NCBI RefSeq assembly: GCF_029267515.1
Contig: NZ_JAJUIS010000004.1
Coordinates: 124,001 to 188,000 of the forward strand
DNA length: 64,000 nucleotides
Direction: 5' to 3'
Source of the DNA: Seleniivibrio woodruffii
GTDB lineage: Bacteria > Chrysiogenota > Deferribacteres > Deferribacterales > Geovibrionaceae
Under the pieces are notes generated by a model. The model saw only the letters and a program-made list of their open reading frames with translations. It did no database searches and was not told the DNA's origin. Shown one piece after another: positions 42,292 to 58,114 of this stretch. Within the stretch, counting starts at the first letter, position 1. Every line of letters starts with the position of its first letter. A program made the position numbers and the translations under genes.

Positions 42292-42966
42292 TTAGTGTGC
42301 TTCTTCAAGTGCACCACTGATATAGATCATTGAAAGCATCATAAATACATACGCCTGAAGCAGTCCTGTGAAGATGCCCAGAAAGAACATGGGCAGCGGA
42401 ACAAGGAAAGGAACAAGCATGAACAGGATGATGATAACGAGGTCTTCACCGAAGATGTTACCAAAAAGCCTCATGGACAGAGAAAGGGGTCTTGCGAGGT
42501 GCCCGATAAGCTCGATGATGAGCATCAGAGGCGCAAGCCACGAAACCGGTCCGAGGAAATGTTTAATGTAGTGGGAACCATGGGTCTTTATACCTATGTA
42601 CTGGTATAAAACAAAAACAACCAGTGCGGGAGCAACGGTTGAGTTAAGGTTTGAAGTTGGTGCAAGGAAACCGGGAATCAGACCAAGCAGGTTTGAAAAT
42701 GCCACATAAAGACCGATACCGAAGATAACCGGAATGTAAGGTCTTCCGTGGTGTCCCATAACGTCGTCGCACATTCCGTAGATAGCTTTGACCAGAAGCT
42801 CAACGGCGTTCTGACCTCTGCCTGGAACTTCGGCCTTCGCACGCAGTGCAAAACCGCCCAGCGCAAGACAGACGAGCACAACGATGAACGTCATGACAAC
42901 GTGCCAGTAGGTATGGGAAAAGCCCATGCCGAAGAGCATGGATACATTAAGCGGGTGTTCCATCAT
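42292..42966 (-). CDS. atpB: F0F1 ATP synthase a subunit
   Basis: The 224-residue membrane protein has the essential stator arginine in the helix [16 protein letters not shown] and forms the ion half-channels against the c ring. Length fits the family. Two adjacent ATG codons (42966 and 42963) follow GGGGAAGA, so the start is uncertain by one codon. It overlaps the atpI stop by 20 bases. Confidence 0.96.
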
Positions 42967-43315
42967 TCTTCCCCTTTAAATTGTTATATATCGCAACAAT
43001 CGGCACACACACGGGCAGGATAGTAAGCCCGACCAGCATACCTGTAACGTTTAATTCAAGCGGTACTATGCAGTACCATGCAAAAAAACCGGAAACCAGC
43101 AGCCTGAACATTCCCCAGAGAACCATCAGACCCGCCCTGCCCTCGTCAACAACTTTCCGCACGCCCTTAGAAAGGTAGCGGAAGTTTACGGCACCCAGCA
43201 GAAAACCCGCCGCTATACCGTTACAAAACGCAGGTTCAAATACAAACGTGAATACTGTATACAATATTCCGCAAAAAATCAATGACAGAATTAATATTTT
43301 ATTTTCTATCTTCAT
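42947..43315 (-). CDS. atpI: ATP synthase I (AtpI-like) protein
   Basis: The 122-residue protein has four predicted membrane helices and the genomic position of AtpI, which helps assemble the c ring. Overlaps of 17 bases with atpZ and 20 bases with atpB show tight coupling. Sequence conservation in the family is low, so position is the main evidence. Confidence 0.8.
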   Translation of the reverse strand: MKIENKILILSLIFCGILYTVFTFVFEPAFCNGIAAGFLLGAVNFRYLSKGVRKVVDEGRAGLMVLWGMFRLLVSGFFAWYCIVPLELNVTGMLVGLTILPVCVPIVAIYNNLKGKNDGTPA

Positions 43316-43556: not shown

Positions 43557-44822
43557 CTACAGAGCTTTGAGACTTTCAAAGTGTGCTTTCGCCGTCTTTT
43601 CAAGGTCAGCCTCAGTGTGCGCAGAAGAGACGAACATCGCCTCAAACTGGCTGGGCGCAAGGTTGATGCCGCGGTTGAGCATTTCGTGGAAGAATTTAGC
43701 ATATTTGCCGGTGTCAGACTTCATTGCATCCTGAAAGCTGTCAACACGCCCCTCTGTGAAGAACATGCAAGCCATGGATTCAACGCGGTTGAAGGCATAG
43801 TTCAGTCCGAGTTTTTTACAGTTGTCAGCCATTGCATCGTAAAGAATATCAGACTTTGCTTTCAGATTCTTATAGAAATCCGGTTCGGAAAGTTTTTTAA
43901 GCATCGCTATCCCTGCCGCAGTGGCAAGGGGGTTGCCGGACAGAGTTCCAGCCTGATAAACGGGACCGATAGGGGACATCATGGACATTATCTCGCGCTT
44001 TCCGCCGAAAGCACCTACGGGTAGCCCGCCGCCGATTATCTTGCCCATTGTGGTGATGTCGGGCATCACGCCGTAATATTCCTGTGCGCCGCCTTTAGCG
44101 ATGCGGAAACCGGTGATGACCTCATCGAAAAGCAGAACTATTCCGTCGCTGTCGCAAGCCTTGCGAAGATCCGCGAGAAAACCGTCTTTCGGCAGAACAA
44201 GTCCCATGTTGCCTGCAACGGGTTCCACAAGGAGACATGCTATCTGCCCTTTGTTCTCTGATATCAGCTTTTTAACAGATTCAATATCGTTGTACTGAGC
44301 TATAAGTGTGTGTTTCGCGAAATCTTCCGGAACACCTGGGCTTGATGGCTGGTTAAATGTCAGAAGTCCGCTGCCGGATTTAACAAGCAGGCTGTCGGAG
44401 TGACCGTGGTAGCAGCCTTCAAATTTGATTATCTTATCGCGTTTTGTGTAGGCACGGGCAAGGCGGATGGCGCTCATGAGCGCTTCCGTGCCGGAGCTCA
44501 CCAGACGAACCATCTCAACGGAAGGCACCATGCCGCAGATGAGCTTAGCAATGTCCAGTTCCGCCTTTGTGGGTGCACCGAAACTTGTGCCGAGTTCAGC
44601 GGCGTGCCTGACCTCGTTTATGATATCGTCGTCTGCGTGACCTGTTATCATGGGTCCCCAGGAGCAGACATAATCTATGTATTCTTTTCCGTCTTCACTG
44701 TAGATTTTAGAACCTTTCGCGCTCCTAACAATAACAGGGTCGCCGCCCACGGAGCCGTAGGCACGCACAGGGCTGTTAACTCCGCCCGGAATAAATTTTT
44801 TGGATTCTTCGAAGATATTCAT
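43557..44822 (-). CDS. hemL: Glutamate-1-semialdehyde 2,1-aminomutase
   Basis: I choose the ATG 44822 (MNIFEESKKFIPGGVNSPVR) with GGGAG before it; it gives 421 residues, the normal size. This PLP enzyme makes 5-aminolevulinate, the heme precursor. Motifs include GTEALMSAIRLAR, ECYHGHSD-like EGCYHGHSD, LLFDEVITGFR, and the PLP lysine in MGKIIGGGLPVGAFGG. It is the first gene of a unit with the F0 genes and has a clear promoter. Heme supply suits the cytochrome-rich neighbourhood. Confidence 0.96.
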   Translation of the reverse strand: MNIFEESKKFIPGGVNSPVRAYGSVGGDPVIVRSAKGSKIYSEDGKEYIDYVCSWGPMITGHADDDIINEVRHAAELGTSFGAPTKAELDIAKLICGMVPSVEMVRLVSSGTEALMSAIRLARAYTKRDKIIKFEGCYHGHSDSLLVKSGSGLLTFNQPSSPGVPEDFAKHTLIAQYNDIESVKKLISENKGQIACLLVEPVAGNMGLVLPKDGFLADLRKACDSDGIVLLFDEVITGFRIAKGGAQEYYGVMPDITTMGKIIGGGLPVGAFGGKREIMSMMSPIGPVYQAGTLSGNPLATAAGIAMLKKLSEPDFYKNLKAKSDILYDAMADNCKKLGLNYAFNRVESMACMFFTEGRVDSFQDAMKSDTGKYAKFFHEMLNRGINLAPSQFEAMFVSSAHTEADLEKTAKAHFESLKAL

Positions 44823-44850
44823 CGTCATCTCCCGAAATATATTTGTGCAG

Positions 44851-44879
44851 ATAATACAAGATATGGGTGCGTCTCTCAA
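44851..44879 (-). promoter_or_regulatory. hemL promoter
   Basis: TTGAGA (44879-44874) and TATTAT (44856-44851) are 17 bases apart on the minus strand. A decayed copy of this promoter and leader occurs at 49277-49332. Confidence 0.65.
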
Positions 44880-44888
44880 CTGTTAACT

Positions 44889-45157
44889 TATACAGCCACG
44901 CATTTTAATCACTCCAATTGATTTACCCGTCTGAGATATAATAAAACAATTAAACTTCCAGTTGAATAAAACAGGATATAGTTAGCATTTAAATCACCAT
45001 GTTTTCACATGTATAAAAAAATTTAAACCTTTTAATATAAGACAAATAGACTGCCAACGATTAAAAAGATATGCGATTCGTGTTGCGCGCCTAATGAACC
45101 ATGGTAATATTCATCCACAGGGTGATATCTTATTTTTTTCTTATTGGAGGCTCCTGC
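44889..45157 (+). promoter_or_regulatory. Upstream region of the hydrogenase-chemoreceptor unit
   Basis: The region is AT-rich. Possible -35/-10 boxes are TTGCGC (45083-45088) and TAATAT (45105-45110) with 16 bases between them; a TATAAT at 44937-44942 lacks a -35 partner. The leader ends with TTGGAGG before the ATG at 45158. No sigma-54 site was seen. Confidence 0.35.
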
Positions 45158-46591
45158 ATGTCTAAAACCATCGCAATCGAGCCGCTGACACGGATTGAAG
45201 GACATCTCAAGGTTGAAACACACACCGACAGCCAAAGGGTGACCGATGCCTTTATCAGCGGACAGATGTATCGCGGCTTTGAAAAATTCCTTGAAAACAG
45301 ACATCCGGTTGACGCGGCGAGAATAGCCCAGAGAGTTTGCGGCGTGTGCCACGAGGTTCACGGCGTTGCGTCTATTATTGCGCTTGAAGATCTTTACAAC
45401 AACCCCTCTCCCCGAAACGGACATATCCTGAGGGACATGATTCTTGGTCTGCACCTTATCACAGACCATTTTCTTCATTTTTATACTCTTTGCGTACCTG
45501 ACTTTGTAGATTTCACGCAGATACTTAACTATAACGGCGGGGACACGGAGATTCTGGCGCTCAAAAACTGGGTTTCAAAGACCAAGCCACAGTTCGTTCT
45601 CAAGCGCAACGCGGGAAACTATATAACCCACACCTCCACGGCACTCGGCATCGTTGCAAACTATTTTCAGGCGCTGAAGATACGCAGCATGGGAGCTTCC
45701 GGCATGGCGATAATCGGCGCGAAGGCTCCTTTCTCCCATGCGGTTCTGCCCGGCGGCATAACGACGGACATAACGCCGGATAAGCTGATGTATTATCACA
45801 ACGTTCTTGAAAAGGTGAAACACTTCACCGTCAACTGTTACATCCCCGACGTTATGGCGGTTGCGAAGCATTTCAAGGAATATTTCAACATAGGGGTAAG
45901 CTACGGCAACTTCTACTCAAATAAAACGTTCACAGCGCTGGGTAAACCGATATTCGAGAGCGGAGTCATCTTAAACGGCAAAAGGGAAGCCTTTTCCATG
46001 GCTAACGTTAAGGAATATCTCGATACCTCATTTTACGACGGAAGCGGAAATCCGAACCCGAAAAAGAAAAACGCTTACAGTTGGACAAAATCGCCCAGAT
46101 ATAAAGGCGAACCTGTGGAGGTAGGACCTCTGGCAAGACTGATAATAGGTAACAACAGCTATTTCAGCGGCATGATGAAAAAGCTCGGCGCACCCGTCAA
46201 GTCTTCCACCATGGCGCGCCACGTCGCGCGGGCTGCTGAAACCAGGATACTCCTCGACCATATGTACAATCTTCTGGATTCATATCGTTTCGGCGAACCG
46301 ACCATAAGGCAGGTGGACTTCGCCAGAAAGGTCAGCGGAAAGGGCATAGGGCTTTCTCTTGCGGCACGCGGAGACCTTATCCACCAAATCGAAGCGTCGA
46401 ACGGTAAAATAACCAGATATAACATGATTGTGCCGAGCACATGGAATTTCGGTCCCGCGGCAAACGGCAAACGGGGTGTTGTGGAACAGTCCCTCGTCGG
46501 AACGCCGGTTGCATACAGCTCCGAAAACTCCATCGAAGTGGGCAGGGTGATAAGAAGCTATGACCCCTGCACAGCCTGTTCCGTGCATTAA
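45158..46591 (+). CDS. [NiFe] hydrogenase large subunit without C-terminal extension
   Basis: The start ATG 45158 follows TTGGAGG; 477 residues. L1 is RIEGHLKVE at 12-20, with L2 cysteines C61 and C64 in RVCGVCHEVHG. The second pair is C471 and C474 in DPCTACSVH, and the stop codon follows H477 directly. Standard large subunits have 15 or so extra residues after this histidine, cut off during maturation. Their absence is known from sensory (regulatory) hydrogenases. It is the first gene of the unit, before the small subunit, the reverse of the usual order. It would be carried to the periplasm with the Tat-tagged small subunit. Confidence 0.96.
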   Translation: MSKTIAIEPLTRIEGHLKVETHTDSQRVTDAFISGQMYRGFEKFLENRHPVDAARIAQRVCGVCHEVHGVASIIALEDLYNNPSPRNGHILRDMILGLHLITDHFLHFYTLCVPDFVDFTQILNYNGGDTEILALKNWVSKTKPQFVLKRNAGNYITHTSTALGIVANYFQALKIRSMGASGMAIIGAKAPFSHAVLPGGITTDITPDKLMYYHNVLEKVKHFTVNCYIPDVMAVAKHFKEYFNIGVSYGNFYSNKTFTALGKPIFESGVILNGKREAFSMANVKEYLDTSFYDGSGNPNPKKKNAYSWTKSPRYKGEPVEVGPLARLIIGNNSYFSGMMKKLGAPVKSSTMARHVARAAETRILLDHMYNLLDSYRFGEPTIRQVDFARKVSGKGIGLSLAARGDLIHQIEASNGKITRYNMIVPSTWNFGPAANGKRGVVEQSLVGTPVAYSSENSIEVGRVIRSYDPCTACSVH

Positions 46592-46602
46592 GGGGGCGCA
46601 TC

Positions 46603-47553
46603 ATGAACATGACAAGAAGGCAGTTTCTGGAAAACTGCGCAAAGGTTTCATCCATGGTGTTCGGTTCCTGTGTGTTCACCAATGAGGTTGCAGAAGGATT
46701 CACACGTCTTTCCGAATCGAAACGCCCGCAGCTCATCTTTATCCAGTCACAGTGCTGCACCGGATGCAGCATTTCTGCGACATACGGCAACGAAGAGGAT
46801 TTCATCAATTTTATAAGTAATATAGTGCGGCTTCAGGTGCATCCCAACCTCTCGTTCAGTCAAGGCACCGACTACATGCGCTCCATAATAGAGGTTTCAA
46901 ACTCCGGTCCATTCTACCTCGTTTGCGAAGGCTCAGTTCCGGCCCGAATGAAAGAGGCTTGCATATTCAACGACGAACCGATGTACGACTATCTCCATAA
47001 GCTCATGAAAAAGGCGGCGGCGGTTGTTGCTTCGGGCACATGTGCCTGCTACGGTGGTATTCCGGCATCCAATCAGAACGTCACCGGAGCCATACCAATC
47101 GACGAATACATGCGGCGGATGAAGGTTAATAAGCCTCTGATAAAGATACCCGGATGCCCCATAAACCCCGACAGGCTCCTTGGCACTGTGGCTTATATCG
47201 TCGCAACCGGCAAGATACCCGAACTTGTTAAAGGCGTACCGAAAAAGTACTATCCAGACCTGATACACAACCAGTGCGGACGCTATCAGGCTTTCAATCA
47301 GGGACACTATACGAAGAACTTCGAAACGGAGAAGCTGAACTGCCTCCTGAAAAACGGGTGCAGAGGTCCCGTGACCTATTCCGACTGCCCCACAAGAAGA
47401 TGGAACGGCAAAGTCAGCGTCTGTATCGAAAGCAACGCACCCTGCATAGGCTGCATACATCAGGAATTTCCGTTCAGAACGGCGCTCTACCTTGAGGAAG
47501 AGTCATTCAAAGACCTTACATGGTCTGAAATGAAAAAACAGATGGAGAAATAG
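46603..47553 (+). CDS. [NiFe] hydrogenase small subunit, Tat-exported
   Basis: The 316-residue protein starts with [10 protein letters not shown], a twin-arginine signal (R5-R6). The proximal cluster ligands include C52 and C55 (CCTGCS), GTCACYGG and PGCPINPD. The C-terminal domain has the medial/distal cluster cysteines ([38 protein letters not shown]). There is no C-terminal membrane helix, and no cytochrome b gene follows, so the enzyme is not attached to the quinone pool in the usual way. Electrons probably leave through the distal cluster to a periplasmic heme protein. Confidence 0.95.
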
Positions 47554-47555
47554 CC

Positions 47556-49139
47556 GTGAAACAAGACTTTAAACAATCCATAAAATTTCGGGCAACACTC
47601 TATATCCTCGCCCCGCTGCTGGCGATATTCGCCGTTCTCATCGTTATGGACATGCGCAAAAACTCTCTCACGAAAACCGCCATGAATCAGTACATGGACT
47701 ACCTGAAAGAGATGATTTTCATGTCCACATACGACTCGCTGAAAAAGGGGAACATGACACTGTTCAGCGAACTGCTCACCGAGATAGGCGACTACGAACT
47801 CGTGAAAGAGTTCTCGCTGCTGACTCCGCAGGGATTGGTGCGCTATTCTTCTCACCCCGAATCGGTGGGAAAATCCGAAGACCTGTCCCACGCATCTCAG
47901 GACAAAGAGGTGCTTTATGTGGAAAACGGCATAACAACATTCTACTACCCGGTAACAACGGCACAATACTGCCTGCGCTGCCACAGGGAATGGTCGGAAG
48001 GAAGTGTCAACTCCTTCTATAAGGTGTCGCTGGACTCCTCTTCCATCTCAAAAATCGAAACAGCTTCATGGATAAACTACATTCTCCTGCTTGTGGCGGG
48101 GGTATCCCTCGTCGTCATACTCATAGCTGTCATGCAGAAGCTGGTTTTCGAAAGGCTCCAGAAGGCTAACGACATAATGGACGACCTCTGCTCCGGTCAG
48201 GGCGACCTCACCATCGAGATGAAAGTGAGGCGCATGGACGAGATAGGCACCCTGAGAACCAAGATAAACAATTTCATCGGACACCTGCGGGATATGATAG
48301 CCGAGCTGAAAGACAAGATCGAGGACGTTGACGGCGACGTTTCCCACATCCGTTCGTCCATGGATACAATAAACGGCTCCGTTCAGGACAACGTTTCAAG
48401 TATCGCCACCATATCCGCGTCTTCCGAGCAGGTTTCAGCAACCCTGCACGACAACATACACAACCTCTCCGCAATCACCGACAGTGTGAATGAAAAGAGA
48501 GAGGCGATATCGTCTTCACTTAACAACGTAATGGCTATCACAGGAATGATAAACGAAATGACATCGTCTGTTGAATCGCTCAGCAAAACAATTTATGCCC
48601 TTGAACAGCGCTCGAACGATATCAACAGCATAACCAACCTTATCAACGAGATTGCCGACCAGACAAACCTGCTGGCGCTGAACGCAGCCATTGAGGCGGC
48701 ACGGGCGGGAGAAGCCGGACGCGGTTTCGCTGTTGTTGCAGACGAGATACGCAAACTTGCCGAGCGCACAACAAGCGCAACGAACGACATAAAGTCGATA
48801 GTTTCGGACAACACGAAGATAATCACAGGAATAGTGAGCGAGATTGACCGCAACAAAGACCACGCCCAGAGCATGAATCAGGGCATCACCGATATTCAGG
48901 ATTTCACCAGAGAGGTTGAAAAGACGATGGAGGACATCACCAGAAACATTGTCAGTCTGACCCAGATGATGACCCAGAGTATTTCTGCACTGGAAGTGAC
49001 GCTGAACAGCATCGAAAACGTAAACGACAATATGGCGCACACAGGCAAGGTGTCGAACAGCATCGCGGAAACGTCGAGATATCTCGGTGAAAAAAGTTCG
49101 CACATGCGTGCCATCGCAGATAAGTTCAAAACACGATAG
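47556..49139 (+). CDS. Methyl-accepting chemotaxis protein with periplasmic c-type heme
   Basis: The GTG start at 47556 lies 2 bases after the hydrogenase small-subunit stop, with GGAGA before it. The 527-residue receptor has a helix at about 14-32, a periplasmic domain, a second helix at about 172-194, HAMP, and the signalling tip around [19 protein letters not shown]. The periplasmic domain contains one heme c motif, CLRCH (C139, C142, H143), near its end. Heme-bearing chemoreceptors such as Desulfovibrio DcrA are known redox or oxygen sensors. No C-terminal CheR-binding pentapeptide is seen. Co-expression with a periplasmic hydrogenase suggests it senses H2 through electron transfer; that is inference. 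Confidence 0.93.
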
Positions 49140-49148
49140 AAAAAGTAA

Positions 49149-49176
49149 GGGGCGGAAAATCCGCCCCTGTTTTATT
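49149..49176 (+). terminator. Terminator after the hydrogenase-chemoreceptor unit
   Basis: The stem GGGGCGGA / TCCGCCCC with a short AA loop and T-rich tail is identical to the hairpin at 51423-51450. Confidence 0.85.
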
Positions 49177-49280
49177 TTAAGGTCCTGTGATGCAGGTGTC
49201 GGGAAATCTATCGGCGTATGTTGATATGTCGCCGTAAGCGCCCATTAACCGTCCTTAACAGCGAAGAAGCCGTATTCCCC
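49149..49280 (-). pseudogene. Decayed duplicate of the 3' end of the double binding-protein gene
   Basis: These 132 bases match 51423-51555, the terminator plus the last 36 or so codons of the gene at 51451-53901. On the minus strand the copy reads GEYGFFAVKDG, then TAA in place of a lysine codon, then WALTATY; a one-base deletion near the end shifts the frame. It is a non-functional fragment. At 49277 it joins directly to the hemL promoter-like copy. Confidence 0.85.
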
Positions 49281-49332
49281 AAATATATTTGTGCATATGA
49301 TGCTAAATTAAGGGGCGCACCTCAACTGTTAT
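49277..49332. repeat. Degenerate copy of the hemL promoter and leader
   Basis: It matches 44831-44888, with AAATATATTTGTGCA and CTCAACTGTTA identical in both. On the minus strand the -35 is TTGAGG and the -10, 17 bases later, is CATCAT, so the promoter has decayed. It drives only the pseudogene fragment. Confidence 0.75.
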
Positions 49333-49513
49333 CCTGTCCCCAGTTTCAAAAATTCGCTTAAATAAGCGGGTATTCCCGCCTGCACAGAACAGATATCCAA
49401 TTATAAATGATATTAACTTGAATTAAATCTCATTTCCCTGACTTGCGCATAATAAATCCATGAAAAATACACGATAAAGTACGCTTACTAATTTTAGAGG
49501 GGGTATCTCAAAA
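49333..49513 (+). other. Leader region of the 5'-nucleotidase gene
   Basis: About 180 AT-rich bases. A small hairpin (CGCTTA / TAAGCG near 49360) is present. A TTGCGC at 49443 sits in a context vaguely like that before the hydrogenase. GAGGGGG lies before the ATG. No gene seen. Confidence 0.35.
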
Positions 49514-51400
49514 ATGTATTCAAAAAAGTGGATAAAACTGCTTTTGCATTTCGCACTGGTTATCAGTCTCAGCGCTTTGCTGTACTCATGTGGAAACGAT
49601 GATAATGACGAAGAACCACAGGACAATGCGCCAAAAAACTCGGCAGTCAGCGTTAAGTTGATCCACACTAACGATCACCACTCGTATCTGGACAGTTCGG
49701 CATATGATTTAACTATCGACGGAGTGGCCACACGTGTACAAATGGGCGGCTTTGCCAGACTGGCAGAGGTAATACAGGAAGAAAGAACATCGAACAGCAT
49801 CGTTGTGAACAGCGGCGAGCTGAATGGAACGCTGTATTTCTCAATGTTCAAAGGCGAACCTGACTTCAAAGTCTTTAACGAGCTTGCTCTTGACGGGTAT
49901 ACTCTGGGCAACCACGAGTTTGATGAAGGGGATGAAGGACTTGCAAAACTTATTGAGATAGCGAACTTCCCTATCCTCTCTTCAAACATAACTCCCAAAC
50001 CTGAAAGTCCTCTCTACAGAGTTAAGGACAAGATAAAACCTTATGTAATCAAAGAAATAGACGGGCAGAAGATAGCCCTTCTCGGTATTCTGAAAGTCGA
50101 AAAGACAAAAAATTCGTCAATGGTGTCAGATAACGTCGAATTTACGGACGAAATTGACACGGCGAAAAAATATGTTGCCGAACTCACAGCTCAGGGAATT
50201 AACAAGATAATCCTTGTCAGTCACCTTGGATACTACAACGACCTGCTGCTTGCAAAAAATGTTTCGGGCATCGACGTTATAGTCGGCGGCGACACCCATG
50301 ACCTGTTAGGCAACCCTTCACAGCTTGCAGAGGTGGGACTGAAGCAAACATATGACAACCAGACAGGTCCTTTTGAAGGGTACACTCACGACGGCATAAA
50401 AGAAGAAGATCTGGGTTCTTATCCAACCACAGTCTCCGCCCCGGACGGCAACCCTGTTCATGTTGTGACGGCATGGTGCTACGCCAGAGCGGTGGGGATA
50501 CTTAACGTGGATTTCTCTGCCGACGGTATCGCACAGATGGCAAAGGGAAAGCTGGTCATCCCCGTTGGCGGTCCCTATCAGCAGAAAGATGGATCGGGTA
50601 CCTTTGTCGATGTTTCAGAAACTGTAAAAACAGCCCTTATTACTGCCATTAACAAAACCAGTCTTTTAAGAACCAAAGAAGTAAACACGACCATTGAAAA
50701 TATACTGAAACCATACAGAGACCAGATAACAGCGGCTATGTCGCAAGTTGTGGGAACTGTTACAACCACTCTTGGATATGACAGGATCCCGTCCGCATTC
50801 ACAGCCGGCTCAACACCGACAGGAAGCTATGCAGCACAGATAGTTACCGACGCGTTTAAGCAAACGAACCCGGCTATAGACATAGCTATCCAGAATGCAG
50901 GCGGTGTACGCACAACGATCAATCAGGGGACAATAACAATGGGAGACATAATAGCAGTTCTCCCATTCTCCAACACTGTCGCAATGATAAATATGAAAGG
51001 ATCTGATATTGTTCAGGTACTCAACGAAGCCGCATACTACTCGCTGCACTCAGGTTCATCAGGTGCATTTCCATACGCGTCAGGACTTAGATACGATGTA
51101 AATCTGAGCGGTGCCGAAGGAAGTGTAATAACTAATGTTGAGGTTCAGGACAGAACAGCGGGAACATGGTCGACCATCGCTGCAAACACAGTGTATACGG
51201 TAGCAACCAACTCGTTCACTGCGCAGGGTAAAGACAACTACCTTTCTTTCAAAAGAGTCCGTGATGCAGACCCTTCAGTTTATGAAGATACGTCAATACT
51301 TTACTATATCCCGCTTGTGCAATATTTTGAAAATCTGCCCGGTAAGATTCTGCCGGCTCTTGACACCTCTACTTATTGCCTCAAATCAGTAACTAACTGA
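49514..51400 (+). CDS. 5'-nucleotidase / UshA-like lipoprotein
   Basis: The 628-residue protein has a lipoprotein signal (LLYSC, C26). The N-terminal calcineurin-like domain has HTNDHHS (D54, H56), GNHEFDEG (N133, H134), SHLGYYND and GGDTH at about 256-260. The C-terminal nucleotidase domain has NAGGVRT, DIIAVLPFSN and VNLSGAEG-type strands. It would hydrolyse nucleotides or UDP-sugars at the cell surface. Two usual metal ligands are altered: the GD of the second motif reads SGELNG (E102), and GGHSH reads GGDTH. Both keep an acidic side chain, so activity is possible but the metal site is atypical. Confidence 0.87.
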   Translation: MYSKKWIKLLLHFALVISLSALLYSCGNDDNDEEPQDNAPKNSAVSVKLIHTNDHHSYLDSSAYDLTIDGVATRVQMGGFARLAEVIQEERTSNSIVVNSGELNGTLYFSMFKGEPDFKVFNELALDGYTLGNHEFDEGDEGLAKLIEIANFPILSSNITPKPESPLYRVKDKIKPYVIKEIDGQKIALLGILKVEKTKNSSMVSDNVEFTDEIDTAKKYVAELTAQGINKIILVSHLGYYNDLLLAKNVSGIDVIVGGDTHDLLGNPSQLAEVGLKQTYDNQTGPFEGYTHDGIKEEDLGSYPTTVSAPDGNPVHVVTAWCYARAVGILNVDFSADGIAQMAKGKLVIPVGGPYQQKDGSGTFVDVSETVKTALITAINKTSLLRTKEVNTTIENILKPYRDQITAAMSQVVGTVTTTLGYDRIPSAFTAGSTPTGSYAAQIVTDAFKQTNPAIDIAIQNAGGVRTTINQGTITMGDIIAVLPFSNTVAMINMKGSDIVQVLNEAAYYSLHSGSSGAFPYASGLRYDVNLSGAEGSVITNVEVQDRTAGTWSTIAANTVYTVATNSFTAQGKDNYLSFKRVRDADPSVYEDTSILYYIPLVQYFENLPGKILPALDTSTYCLKSVTN

Positions 51401-51422
51401 TACTGATTTCTCATATTTATCA

Positions 51423-51450
51423 GGGGCGGAAAATCCGCCCCTGTTTTATT
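51423..51450. terminator. Bidirectional terminator between 5'-nucleotidase and binding-protein genes
   Basis: The stem GGGGCGGA / TCCGCCCC has T-rich flanks downstream on the plus strand; it is the original of the copy at 49149. Confidence 0.8.
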
Positions 51451-53901
51451 TTATGGTCTTGTGATTGCAGGTGTCGGGAAATCTATCGGCGTATGGTGAT
51501 ACGTCGCCGTAAGCGCCCATTTACCATCCTTAACAGTGAAGAAGCCGTATTCCCCGAAACGCCTGTCACCAGCCGAGTTAAGTGCCATATAGTTGCTGAG
51601 TCCTATATATTTCCCCGCAAACGTGTTTATCTGCCCGCCGAGGGTTGTTGCGGAATCGTTCACAAAACCGCCGTATGCCAGCGCACCTATCCACACTGAA
51701 TCCCACGCAGTATAAGCATATGTGATGGGGTCATAACCAAGTTTTTCATGCAGTTTGTCCCGCACCACCATTCTGGATATCGGTTCAGGAACGGTCTTGC
51801 TGCCAACCTCTATGATTGAGTATATGGCGCATGTGAACCCCGTCTCCTCTGCGAAATTTGCAGCCTTATCTGAATCGAACAGCGACGAGTTTTTGGCAAA
51901 TCCGTCACCGCCGTACCATGCGGCACCTTTAAGAACCGACGATCCTGACGAGTATTCAAGTATCTGCGTACCCTCTTCATAAGAAAGCAGAAGAACGGCA
52001 CTTTTTCCCTCGGTCGAAGACGAAACTGCGTCCTCCGCGCTGTCTACAGCCTTCCTGTATGATGATACTGAATCCGGTTCATAGGTTATTGAAGCCTTAA
52101 CTGTCAGCCCCGCCGCGGCAAGGTCTGTCGCTACGCTCTGCGCCAGTTCGCCGCCCCAAGTATCGTTTCTGTATATTATTGTTATGTCAGTCTTTCCGTC
52201 CTCTTTCAGAAGCATTGTGAGTGCGTTTGCCATCTCCGCATCGGAAAGGATAAATCTGTACAGATTATCCCCGCTCACAGCAAGCGCATCGGAAGTAGCC
52301 GCCGGCGAAATGAGGGTCATGCCGTATGAGCTGAGATAAGGCAGAAGCGCCTCGGCAACGGAACTGCTGATAACTCCTGTCACCAGAGTAATCCCCTCCC
52401 CGTGCAGTTTTTTAAGTGCTGCAACCGCAGTGTCGGGATCCGTCGCAGTGTCTTCAACAGAGAGCGCCACCCTGTTGGACGATCCGTAAAACGCATAGTA
52501 GCTGTTTATGGAATCGGCGGCGTTTTCAATGCCTTTCAGTGCGGACATTCCTGCCTGAGCCAGTCCTCCGGTTTTGGGAACCAGAACGCCCAGCTTTATT
52601 GTTCCGCCCGGAACATCCGGCAGACTTATCCCCGTTGAAGAGACTGTAATTATCTGCGGAGTTACGCCGGAAAATGTGTAAGCGTCAGTAACCTGAGACA
52701 CGGAAGAACTTATCATCCTGTGGAAGCTGTATCCGCTGTCCTCTTTGTCCCCTGCCGCAGTCAGTTCCAGCCTTCCGCTGACCCCTGCAAGACCGGGTTC
52801 GGTGTTGCTTGTCACATCGAATACAGCCTGAATAATATCGTCCGCAGAAGCGGACGCACCCTTTTCCATCAGACCAAGACCGATAAGCCAGGCGGCATCG
52901 TAACCAACAAGGGACGAAACATTTGTCACTCCGTTGTTCAGAGTATATATTCTCTCGCGTAAGGCACGGTCGGGAATAACTTTTTTGGGCATGGCGAGTG
53001 CTTCCTCGTCGATGGTGAACTCAGGACTCATAAGGGACACAGCCGCGGCGAAAGCGGCAGAATCGGCATTTGCAAAAAAGATACTCTGGTCTGCGTTTCC
53101 GTCGCTTCCGTACCATCTCACGTTTTCAAGCGTGGTTCCCCGCGCCGCATCAAAAAGAGCGACAGCCTCTTCCAGAGAGGAGAGCTGAACCGCCACGGCA
53201 GAAGCGCCGTATGTCCCGACGGCGGCATCAACAGCGGTCTTTATCTGGGCAACCAGAGCGGAAAAGTCCTGTGTTCCCGCAGGATATGTGAAAGAAGCCT
53301 CCACACTGCCGCCAAGGGTTGTGAACTCAGTGCGGACAGCCGCTGAGAGCTCGTTTCCGTAATTGTTGTCGAGGTTGACCGTGATAAGGCGTGTATGCCC
53401 CTCGCGGTTCATCATCATGGCAAGCCCTTTCGCCTGATTTTCATCGGACGGGGCGAGTCTGAGGAGGTTATCGCCGGCAATGGCGAGGGACGGTGCCGTG
53501 CTGCTGCTTATAAGCAGTATGCCGTTCGCGTTGGCATAGTCCAGAACAGCCGCCGCTTCCGCACTGCTCCCCGGACCGATGACGAATTTTATTCCCTGCG
53601 CGTGGAACTCTTTCAGCTTTTCAAGGGCTGTTGACGGGTCTGTGGCGGAGTCCGCATAGACAGCGCTCAGACGGACGGGTGAACCTGAAACCTCAAGGTG
53701 TCTGTTAACATCCTCGATACCAAGTTTAACAGCTATTTCCATCCCTTTTCCGGTGGATGCCATTGAACCTGTCATCGGCAGAAGGGCGCCTACCTTAACG
53801 GTTTCGGTGTTTTCGCCGCCGGAACTGCCGGATAATCCGCAGCCAGCCAGCAGAAAAACAGAAACGGTTAAAATACATATTAAAAGTAAAAATCGCTTCA
53901 T
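51451..53901 (-). CDS. Lipoprotein with two tandem branched-chain-amino-acid-type binding domains
   Basis: The 816-residue protein has a lipoprotein signal (LLAGC, C21) and two type I periplasmic binding folds, about 35-395 and 430-810. The domains are clearly related: KVGALLPMTGSMA against KLGVLVPKTGGLA, ADSATDPSTAL against EDTATDPDTAV, LLISSSTAPSLAIAGDNL against LISPAATSDALAVSGDNL. It looks like an internal duplication of a LivK-like protein. No ABC permease or ATPase gene is adjacent, so it may be a sensor or belong to a distant transporter. Its 3' end is duplicated at 49149-49280. Confidence 0.9.
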   Translation of the reverse strand: MKRFLLLICILTVSVFLLAGCGLSGSSGGENTETVKVGALLPMTGSMASTGKGMEIAVKLGIEDVNRHLEVSGSPVRLSAVYADSATDPSTALEKLKEFHAQGIKFVIGPGSSAEAAAVLDYANANGILLISSSTAPSLAIAGDNLLRLAPSDENQAKGLAMMMNREGHTRLITVNLDNNYGNELSAAVRTEFTTLGGSVEASFTYPAGTQDFSALVAQIKTAVDAAVGTYGASAVAVQLSSLEEAVALFDAARGTTLENVRWYGSDGNADQSIFFANADSAAFAAAVSLMSPEFTIDEEALAMPKKVIPDRALRERIYTLNNGVTNVSSLVGYDAAWLIGLGLMEKGASASADDIIQAVFDVTSNTEPGLAGVSGRLELTAAGDKEDSGYSFHRMISSSVSQVTDAYTFSGVTPQIITVSSTGISLPDVPGGTIKLGVLVPKTGGLAQAGMSALKGIENAADSINSYYAFYGSSNRVALSVEDTATDPDTAVAALKKLHGEGITLVTGVISSSVAEALLPYLSSYGMTLISPAATSDALAVSGDNLYRFILSDAEMANALTMLLKEDGKTDITIIYRNDTWGGELAQSVATDLAAAGLTVKASITYEPDSVSSYRKAVDSAEDAVSSSTEGKSAVLLLSYEEGTQILEYSSGSSVLKGAAWYGGDGFAKNSSLFDSDKAANFAEETGFTCAIYSIIEVGSKTVPEPISRMVVRDKLHEKLGYDPITYAYTAWDSVWIGALAYGGFVNDSATTLGGQINTFAGKYIGLSNYMALNSAGDRRFGEYGFFTVKDGKWALTATYHHTPIDFPTPAITRP

Positions 53902-54982: not shown

Positions 54983-55082
54983 ATTTCACCCTTTCGCAAA
55001 ATGTCAGTAATTATACATACAATACCATTAAAATATTAAGCGTTATTTTGTATAACAGCATAAAAATCCGAGGGTGTATAAA

Positions 55083-55403
55083 ATGTGTGACTGCAAAAAA
55101 GAGATAAAGGTTGATGAGAGCTACGTCAGTTTTAAAAACATAAACTGTTTCGAAAATGCGTGTCAGGTTGTTGACCACCTTCTGAGAGTTCTGAAGGAGA
55201 CACAGTATTCAAACGCATTTTGGGAAAGATTTGTGGAACGCATACCCGAAGGCTATTACCTCCGCGACCCGCAAAAAGACCCGAAAGAGGAGCTTCTTTA
55301 CCTTGTGTGCTCCTGCGCTTCCATGATAGGCGAGCTTTTCGACCGGACAGAGGACGAAGACGCCCTCCACGCCCTTGAAAAATGTGAATCGGAATGCTGC
55401 TGA
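55083..55403 (+). CDS. cowN: CowN-like protein (CO-protection of nitrogenase)
   Basis: I choose the ATG 55083 behind GAGGG; a GTG three codons upstream is possible. The 106 residues match CowN by YVSFKNINCFENACQVVDHL, SNAFWERF and LLYLVCSCASMIGELF. In Rhodospirillum and Azotobacter relatives CowN keeps nitrogenase working in the presence of CO. The ends carry extra cysteines (MCDCKK and ESECC) not expected in short CowN proteins. No nif genes occur in the window, so a nitrogenase elsewhere in the genome is predicted. Confidence 0.78.
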   Translation: MCDCKKEIKVDESYVSFKNINCFENACQVVDHLLRVLKETQYSNAFWERFVERIPEGYYLRDPQKDPKEELLYLVCSCASMIGELFDRTEDEDALHALEKCESECC

Positions 55404-56212: not shown

Positions 56213-56243
56213 AAGCGGAGGTTTTCGCCTCCGCTTCAATTTT
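56213..56243. terminator. Bidirectional terminator between dienelactone hydrolase and antiporter genes
   Basis: The stem AGCGGAGG / CCTCCGCT has A-rich upstream and T-rich downstream flanks, so it can act in both directions. Confidence 0.88.
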
Positions 56244-57447
56244 TTTCCTGCGGAACCCGCCTGAATCTGTCGCCGATGAATTTGAAAAACATATAGATAT
56301 TCTTAGATTCCTTCGTGAGCAGCGGCCCCAGAACAGCCAGCAGAAGCACATATACCACTGCGAATGACTGGAGTACGGGCAAAAGCCCGCCCGCTTTGCC
56401 GATACTCGCCATGATTATCGAAAACTCCCCTCTGGAAACCAGCGTAAAACCTATATTAGTGGACGCTTTAGGCGAAACACCTGCTATGCGTCCAGCTATC
56501 CTGCCGGAAATGAAATTCGCCGCTATGGTGAGCAGAACTCCGATAAAAGCCGCTCCGACAGCACCGCCGAGGGACATTGGGTCAATGCTCAGACCAAAGC
56601 TGAAAAAGAACATGGCTCCGAAAAAATCTCTGAAAGGCACTATCATGTGTTCAATGCGCTTTCCATGTACTGAATCAGCGAGCACAAGACCAATCAGAAG
56701 TGCGCCTATTGCCTCGGCAACGTGCACTGTCTCCGAAAGCCCCGCAGTGACGAACAGCAGCGCTGCCACCGTAAGCAGGAACAGCTCGGAGGATTTTATA
56801 TCCAGAGATTTGTCGATATATTTCATAAACCTGCGTCCGGCAGCAATGAACAGCAGAATGAAGCCCAGAGCAAACACTGAAGTTTTCGCTATTGCGCCGA
56901 CGGACGTTGCACCGCTCAGAACCAGACCGGACAGGAAAGACATATGTATGGCGATGAAAAGGTCGTCGAACATTATCATACCCATAATAATTTCCGTTTC
57001 GGGGTTCGCCGTGCGCTTCAGATCAACAAGCACCTTCGCAACGATCGCCGTTGAAGAGCTTGTCATGATTCCGCACACAACCATGGTCTCTTTAAGAGGA
57101 AAACCCAGCATCCAGCCCAGCAAAAGTCCTGACACGAAGTTAAGCCCTACATAAAAAGCGCCGCCCGCAACAATGGATTTTCCTGATTTCAGAAGCCTGC
57201 TTACGGAAAACTCAAGTCCAAGATAAAAAAGCAGAAAGAGCACGCCCAGCCTGCCCATGAACTCGATAAATTCGTAGCTTTCAAGAAACCGGAAATCAAG
57301 TATTCCCATATGCGGCACATGAGGACCCATCAGCATCCCGACAATTATGTAAAACGGTATGACGGAAAACCTGAACCGCTCGGCAATAAGCCCCACGGAG
57401 GCTATAAGAACAAGCGCGAAACCTATTTCAAGTACAACTGCATCCAT
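56236..57447 (-). CDS. CPA2-type cation/proton antiporter
   Basis: The 403-residue membrane protein has about 12 helices and typical CPA2 features: GMLMGP, LFYLGLEFS, SSSTAIVAKVL with the following acidic MGMIMFDDLFIA, and SRGEFSIIMA. It lacks a C-terminal RCK domain. The TrkA-C protein encoded 13 bases upstream would gate it, as in the KhtTU K+/H+ antiporter. Confidence 0.91.
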   Translation of the reverse strand: MDAVVLEIGFALVLIASVGLIAERFRFSVIPFYIIVGMLMGPHVPHMGILDFRFLESYEFIEFMGRLGVLFLLFYLGLEFSVSRLLKSGKSIVAGGAFYVGLNFVSGLLLGWMLGFPLKETMVVCGIMTSSSTAIVAKVLVDLKRTANPETEIIMGMIMFDDLFIAIHMSFLSGLVLSGATSVGAIAKTSVFALGFILLFIAAGRRFMKYIDKSLDIKSSELFLLTVAALLFVTAGLSETVHVAEAIGALLIGLVLADSVHGKRIEHMIVPFRDFFGAMFFFSFGLSIDPMSLGGAVGAAFIGVLLTIAANFISGRIAGRIAGVSPKASTNIGFTLVSRGEFSIIMASIGKAGGLLPVLQSFAVVYVLLLAVLGPLLTKESKNIYMFFKFIGDRFRRVPQEKN

Positions 57448-57460
57448 TCAGCCTCCCCTG

Positions 57461-57946
57461 CTATTTCGCGGCGAGGAGTTCTTTGAACAGCTTTATGTGC
57501 TGTCTTTCCCCCGCAACAACAAGGACAGAATCGGATACGAATTTGTAATCCGGTCCGGGAACGATATTCTTTTTCTCTTTCTCAACGACGGCAATAACCG
57601 AAACACCTGTTAACTGCCTGACCTTCAGTTCGCCTATCGTTTTGCCTATCCATGAAGAGGCAGGATCTATCCTGTGCCACTCTATAACAAGATCGTCTAT
57701 CTCAATATCGATGTTTTCAAGTGCTTTCGGCTTATAAGCCATTCCGCCGATTATCCCGGCCAGTTTTCTTGCCTCATCGTCGGTGAAAGTCCCAACGGAA
57801 AGCCTTTCATCCGGATCTTTCGGGTCGGGAACATACATTTCCCTTGTTCCGTTGTCGTGGACAATAACGATAACTCTGCCCTTCTCTTTAGTTTCCAGAA
57901 TGAATTTTCGCCCGATACCCGGCAGATCAGTCTCTTTTACCTGCAT
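57461..57946 (-). CDS. KhtT-like regulatory subunit with TrkA-C domain
   Basis: I choose the ATG 57946 (MQVKETDLPGIGRKF) with GGGAGGG before it; 161 residues. The N-terminal part matches KhtT proteins, and the C-terminal RCK_C/TrkA-C domain runs from about 85 (WIGKTIGELKVRQLTGVSVIAV) to the end. RCK_C domains bind nucleotides or ions and gate cation transporters. Pairing with the antiporter gene supports that role. Confidence 0.87.
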   Translation of the reverse strand: MQVKETDLPGIGRKFILETKEKGRVIVIVHDNGTREMYVPDPKDPDERLSVGTFTDDEARKLAGIIGGMAYKPKALENIDIEIDDLVIEWHRIDPASSWIGKTIGELKVRQLTGVSVIAVVEKEKKNIVPGPDYKFVSDSVLVVAGERQHIKLFKELLAAK

Positions 57947-58114
57947 TTTCAATCCCTCCCAATTATTTTTACTATATAATTTTTCTATATGATTCATTTT
58001 AAGACATTATAGTTCACTGTCAAAGCAAAATTAATTATATCATATATATTTGTTTTGATTTTAGAGGCATTTTGTACTATGTTTTCTGATTATCAATCAA
58101 TACGGAGGGGCGCA

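Follow-up and report, generated by a model that had tools for sequence, protein, structure and literature searches.

Products of homology-facilitated illegitimate recombination (HFIR) typically insert and delete ~1 kb each, and their joints mostly carry 3–10 bp of microhomology (PMC3240628, as excerpted). T6SS effector-immunity modules of Vibrio cholerae undergo sequential displacement, in which the incoming module is anchored by a conserved flank and the older module is pushed along (PMC5361080, in the parts drawn on here). Merodiploids of Streptococcus pneumoniae form between long repeats already present in the chromosome, remnants of IS861, and span ~100–900 kb (PMC3784515, likewise in extract). 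A listing of the Seleniivibrio literature contains no entry about the locus described below.

We analysed a 64,000-nucleotide stretch of a Seleniivibrio woodruffii genome (hereafter the window), in which two sets of genes lie in series between hemL and argC and are bounded by interleaved repeats (Table 1). We favour, with moderate confidence, the explanation that this segment is an in-series fusion of two alternative hemL–argC haplotypes, made through one homologous joint and one microhomology joint. Below, G000 denotes the genome carrying the window, G003 its closest relative and G001 a Seleniivibrio metagenome-assembled genome (MAG); G002 and G003, which with G001 are the key relatives, are MAGs as well.

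Two repeat pairs bound two cassettes in tandem

Table 1. Features of the hemL-proximal segment, with positions counted from the first letter of the window.
Feature	Position	Strand	Basis
hemL (glutamate-1-semialdehyde aminomutase), left conserved anchor	43557..44822	-	TIGR00713, 602.8 bits (cut-off 527.3)
R: hemL leader and promoter, A-type (as G003, G004)	44830..44885	-	2/57 differences from G003
NiFe hydrogenase large subunit (hydL), cassette A	45158..46591	+	PF00374
Hydrogenase small subunit with RRxFL leader, cassette A	46603..47553	+	TIGR00391
Methyl-accepting chemoreceptor with CxxCH motif, cassette A	47556..49139	+	PF00015
D': terminator and last ~108 bp of binding-protein gene, decayed, frameshifted copy	49148..49283	.	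Repeat search, alignment
D'/R' junction, today TCCCCAAA; CCCGAAA common to parental sequences	49276..49283	.	
R': relic hemL leader/promoter, B type, away from hemL	49276..49331	-	-35 TTGAGG as G001; -10 now CATCAT
Nucleotidase upstream region; counterpart in G001 only	49332..49513	+	Alignment
5'-nucleotidase / NAD-nucleotidase-like protein, cassette B	49514..51400	+	PF02872, PF00149; 94% aa to G001
D: terminator and 3' end of intact binding-protein gene	51422..51558	.	
Double periplasmic-binding-protein gene, 816 aa	51451..53901	-	PF13458

A repeat search within the window pairs the hemL leader and promoter (R) with R' at 43 of 56 positions (77%), and the 3' end of the binding-protein gene with its terminator (D) with D' at ~94% identity. 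R carries, on the minus strand, a -35 box TTGAGA and a -10 box TATTAT spaced by 17 nt, and the hemL ATG lies at 44822. D comprises a hairpin terminator at 51421-51443 and the 35 codons that end the binding-protein gene, whose stop is at 51451. The D'/D alignment falls into two in-register blocks separated by a 1-nt indel (49148-49191 against 51422-51465, 95%; 49191-49283 against 51466-51558, 94%). D' runs directly into R', with an overlap of a few bases at 49276-49283.

Genome-wide searches found each of the R and D elements in just two copies in G000, which rules out a dispersed repeat. Against all of G000, R and R' match with E = 6e-5, and none of 2000 shuffles of 49140-49520 reached 43/56 (maximum 30). 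The sequence-only reading had described both decayed copies and had placed R, R', D' and D to within 1–3 nt of their positions here; both are confirmed as unique pairs in G000, and self-comparison recovers them in register. Its arrangement of two R-to-D units in tandem with D' abutting R', R-[A]-D'|R'-[B]-D, also emerges from the repeat search.

The hallmarks of a mobile element such as a transposon or integron cassette (a short target-site duplication, inverted ends, a transposase or integrase) were not found, and each repeat forms one pair only in G000. The repeat search found no inverted repeats pairing the borders besides the palindromic terminator itself, and no transposase, integrase or other recombinase family was matched among the proteins scanned. 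The repeats as such have no evident function; D' happens to offer the chemoreceptor gene a predicted terminator.

The hydrogenase subunits and the adjoining CxxCH chemoreceptor (45158-49139) could be a putative hydrogen- or redox-sensing chemotaxis module; the chemoreceptor motif reads CLRCH in all five orthologues read (G000, G002, G003, G004 and G009). The nucleotidase scores 394.5 bits with the nadN profile, under the cut-off of 436.

Relatives carry the two cassettes separately

We read gene order by tblastn in stretches from eight genomes, six of which (G001, G002, G003, G004, G007 and G009) have hemL and argC together, with the hemL orthologue at this locus. A DNA search of 31 genomes gave a match in 8, and a scan with the small gene at 42947-43315 returned 3 loci only and no further genomes. 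In G001 the order is hemL-R-nucleotidase-terminator-araC-CowN-hydrolase-argC, without the hydrogenase and without the binding-protein gene. In G003 it is hemL-R-hydrogenase-chemoreceptor-terminator-X-terminator-binding protein-araC onward, without the nucleotidase. The hydrogenase genes and chemoreceptor also follow hemL in G002, G004 and G009, and G002 and G004 likewise lack the nucleotidase; in G007, argC follows hemL with nothing between. The window holds both sets in series, hemL-R-hydrogenase-chemoreceptor-D'/R'-nucleotidase-D-binding protein. Both single arrangements that a fusion would join are thus present in relatives (A in G002, G003, G004 and G009; B in G001).

Across the family, hemL and argC are neighbours in 8 of 12 genomes and unlinked in the other four (G005, G006, G008 and G010). 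A hydL orthologue lies between them in six of these eight (G000, G002, G003, G004, G009 and G011; not G001 or G007), so the hydrogenase is probably the older neighbour of hemL. A full-length orthologue of the binding-protein gene was found only in G000 and G003 among the 12 family genomes searched. Gene-order comparison of the G003 stretch downstream of the chemoreceptor revealed no remnant of R', of the nucleotidase or of the part of D' that comes from the binding-protein gene.

The hemL–argC interval is variable in the family: G004, for example, has an SMR pair between hemL and the hydrogenase. G002 has an IrrE-like protein with an HTH and a DUF4411 protein between the chemoreceptor and argC (L041:14196-15851), which looks like a toxin-antitoxin-type pair. 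Insert X of G003 (L012:11051-12325) is an AT-rich (29% GC), 351-aa ORF that matches no Pfam family; it is flanked by two 30-bp terminator copies and sits at the nucleotidase's place in the window. Farther right, a CowN-like gene (55074-55403, PF20543) adjoins an AraC-type regulator and a dienelactone-hydrolase-like gene, a trio also found in G001 and G003. A cation/proton exchanger gene (PF00999) and its small neighbour (56236-57997) precede argC in G000 and G004 and are absent there in G001 and G003.

Origin and age of the repeat copies

R' resembles the hemL leader of G001. In that genome the nucleotidase match opens at the position corresponding to the beginning of R', and the match to R continues into hemL. 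R' and the nucleotidase upstream region are identical to the G001 hemL–nucleotidase spacer at 199 of 242 columns. Over 57 columns partly under promoter constraint, 8 diagnostic sites unite R' with G001 against R and G003, and the two alternative groupings are backed by 3 and 4 sites. The -35 box TTGAGG is common to R' and G001, and the -10 box reads CATCAT in R' and TATCAT in G001. Because R' matches G001 in spacer, -35 box and diagnostic sites, it would be a former hemL/nucleotidase spacer, and it is most simply read as the hemL leader of the nucleotidase-type (B) arrangement, detached from hemL. The two halves of the segment were probably different alleles before joining, since R' sides with G001 and is far from R.

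The two repeat pairs have diverged to different degrees. D'/D shows 9 differences over 134 aligned columns and R/R' 13 over 57 (Fisher p = 0.0026), and R differs from the R of G003 at 2 of 57. At the D/D' rate, at least 13 R/R' differences would arise with Poisson P = 1.8e-4, or P = 0.019 if the D' count is set at its upper 95% limit. Judged from this divergence, the R/R' pair is apparently older than the D'/D pair.

With G003 as a third sequence for D, 7 changes fall on D' (the last being the joint base itself), 2 on D and 10 on G003, where three are one loop reversal and one is a slicing artefact at column 1. D' differs from the D of G000 at 9 columns and from that of G003 at 17, one of them the slicing artefact. 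D' therefore groups with its G000 partner before the copies of other species, and R' does not, siding with G001 at the 8 sites above. Calibrated on 4-fold sites of flanking genes, the D' branch of 7 changes amounts to ~0.15–0.38 of the G000/G003 neutral branch, with 95% upper bounds of 0.32–0.79. D' would be younger than the G000/G003 split unless it has been converted by D, through which it could merely look young.

The D'/R' joint shows a likely microhomology. The motif CCCGAAA is common to the extant D and to the hemL leaders of G000 and G001, and the chance of at least 7 bp is ~4e-4. With CCCCAAA at the joint today, the strict microhomology falls short of 7 bp, and a 1-bp loss or change is assumed. 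Microhomology at the illegitimate joint, as HFIR expects, is accordingly found in the parental sequences, the G having since been lost or changed. Ku was found in none of five genus genomes, which fits microhomology joining rather than Ku end-joining. ComEC occurs in all five and is uninformative, because 10 of 14 controls, including E. coli, also have it.

A proposed fusion of two haplotypes and its alternatives

These observations are consistent with the following course. Haplotype A would have been hemL-R-hydrogenase-chemoreceptor-terminator-binding protein, as in G003, and haplotype B hemL-R'-nucleotidase-terminator-..., as in G001. Linear DNA of one haplotype would enter a cell carrying the other and recombine homologously with the resident at one end, either at hemL (left) or at the terminator and binding protein (right), and its other end would be joined illegitimately through CCCGAAA. 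The product would hold cassettes A and B in tandem, with R/R' and D'/D as direct repeats at their borders. Either cassette could be lost again by an R–R' or a D'–D crossover.

Most likely, a B-type nucleotidase fragment entered an A-type (hydrogenase) chromosome near the common terminator. Two points favour this direction: the greater age of the A arrangement, and the absence of any nucleotidase trace at this spot in the closest relative. The sequence-only reading had offered, as its second option, insertion of the hydrogenase unit between copied borders. That is one possible direction of joining, but the hydrogenase is hemL's older neighbour, which makes the nucleotidase the likelier newcomer; a newly arrived hydrogenase is less likely given hydL in most of the syntenic family genomes. 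The 4-fold divergence of the nucleotidase from G001 is 0.39, within the 0.07–0.60 of 14 other genes compared with G001, and does not support a recent transfer from a G001-like species. Since vertical descent would give the same value, it is the structure of the locus that points to transfer. The 4-fold comparison found no clear or sharp switch between G003-like and G001-like affinity in the flanking genes, left versus right. No relative shows nucleotidase, terminator and binding protein in one B-type piece, and G001 lacks the binding-protein gene.

A series R, D', R', D in which D' meets R' directly is exactly what a single R-to-D tandem duplication within the G000 lineage, followed by different gene loss in each copy, would leave. 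The two tandem units of that earlier proposal stand; the copying of one unit is disfavoured, because both pairs would then date from one event, yet their rates of difference are unequal. R' moreover groups with G001 and not with the resident R, the full unit occurs in no relative, and both losses would have to stop exactly at the ends of the G001 and G003 arrangements, all of which makes this origin quite improbable. We consider it extremely unlikely that the two pairs stem from unrelated events, with D' copied by a local template switch between terminators and R' resembling R through promoter convergence. R is indeed a promoter region under constraint, but the extent of the R/R' match, its genome-wide E value and the shuffles speak against convergence, and an R'-like stretch still joined to hemL in G001 refutes it unless the G001 MAG is misassembled there. 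Such an assembly artefact, in G001 or in the window, is itself very unlikely. The assemblies are drafts (35 contigs in G000; coverage of 9.4 for the G001 contig), but flanking synteny reaches argC-argJ in both the window and G001. The copies are not simply duplicated reads, because D'/D and R/R' differ at many sites.

The most serious alternative, which we nevertheless regard as the less probable account, is that the tandem state is old. The ancestor of G000, G001 and G003 would have had hemL-R-hydrogenase-chemoreceptor-T-R'-nucleotidase-T, resolved differently in each lineage: R–R' recombination would have removed the hydrogenase from G001, recombination across the terminator pair the nucleotidase from G003, and in G000 template switching or gene conversion from D would later have lengthened the first terminator into D'. 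The nucleotidase divergence from G001 fits such vertical descent. R/R' and the 30-bp terminator repeats of G003 are direct repeats where such deletions would fall, and G003 keeps a terminator on either side of insert X. The sites that would reveal an R/R' crossover behind the single R of G001 coincide with private changes of R' (columns 5, 22, 28 and 35). Against this history, at least four events are needed instead of two, G003 lacks any trace of R', the nucleotidase and the binding-protein part of D' after its chemoreceptor, D' postdates the G000/G003 split unless converted, and the ancient event that made R' is left without explanation. The haplotype fusion remains our preferred reading.

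The terminator itself may have a part in such exchanges. The hairpin GGGGCGG-AAAA/TTTT-CCGCCCC is nearly confined to the hemL–argC locus in the clade, with 3 exact sites in G000 (two at this locus), 2 in G003, 1 in G001 and none in G002 or G004. It flanks different inserts, the nucleotidase in G000 and X, between the 30-bp repeats, in G003. Since the terminator is near-confined to this interval and borders both inserts, hairpin terminators might serve as joints for cassette exchange between conserved genes, with tandem double occupancy as an intermediate, a suggestion that we consider doubtful.

Comparison with known systems

The locus can be read as a fossil of two alternative modules joined, with the borders and the joint preserved and, in relatives, both single-module states. 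If confirmed, it would document a microhomology-joined haplotype fusion in Deferribacterota, and it would caution that interleaved border repeats are not necessarily the mark of tandem duplication. The finding leaves the understanding of every gene's function unchanged. The locus is a clean case of an already known, ordinary type of rearrangement, at the variable hemL–argC spot.

The closest likeness in mechanism is to HFIR in natural transformation, where one joint is homologous and one illegitimate, the latter with 3–10 bp of microhomology; unlike the typical product excerpted there, the window gains 2–4 kb with no visible loss, and the event is old and decayed (PMC3240628). As in the part of the T6SS array account drawn on here, a displaced older module keeps a remnant of its former border, but the window holds metabolic and sensory cassettes rather than effector-immunity pairs, and one step rather than a long array (PMC5361080). 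The merodiploids of S. pneumoniae transformation, in the extract used, share with the window two versions of a region in tandem with direct-repeat borders, whereas the window has units of 2.3 and 4.4 kb joined at a microhomology (PMC3784515).
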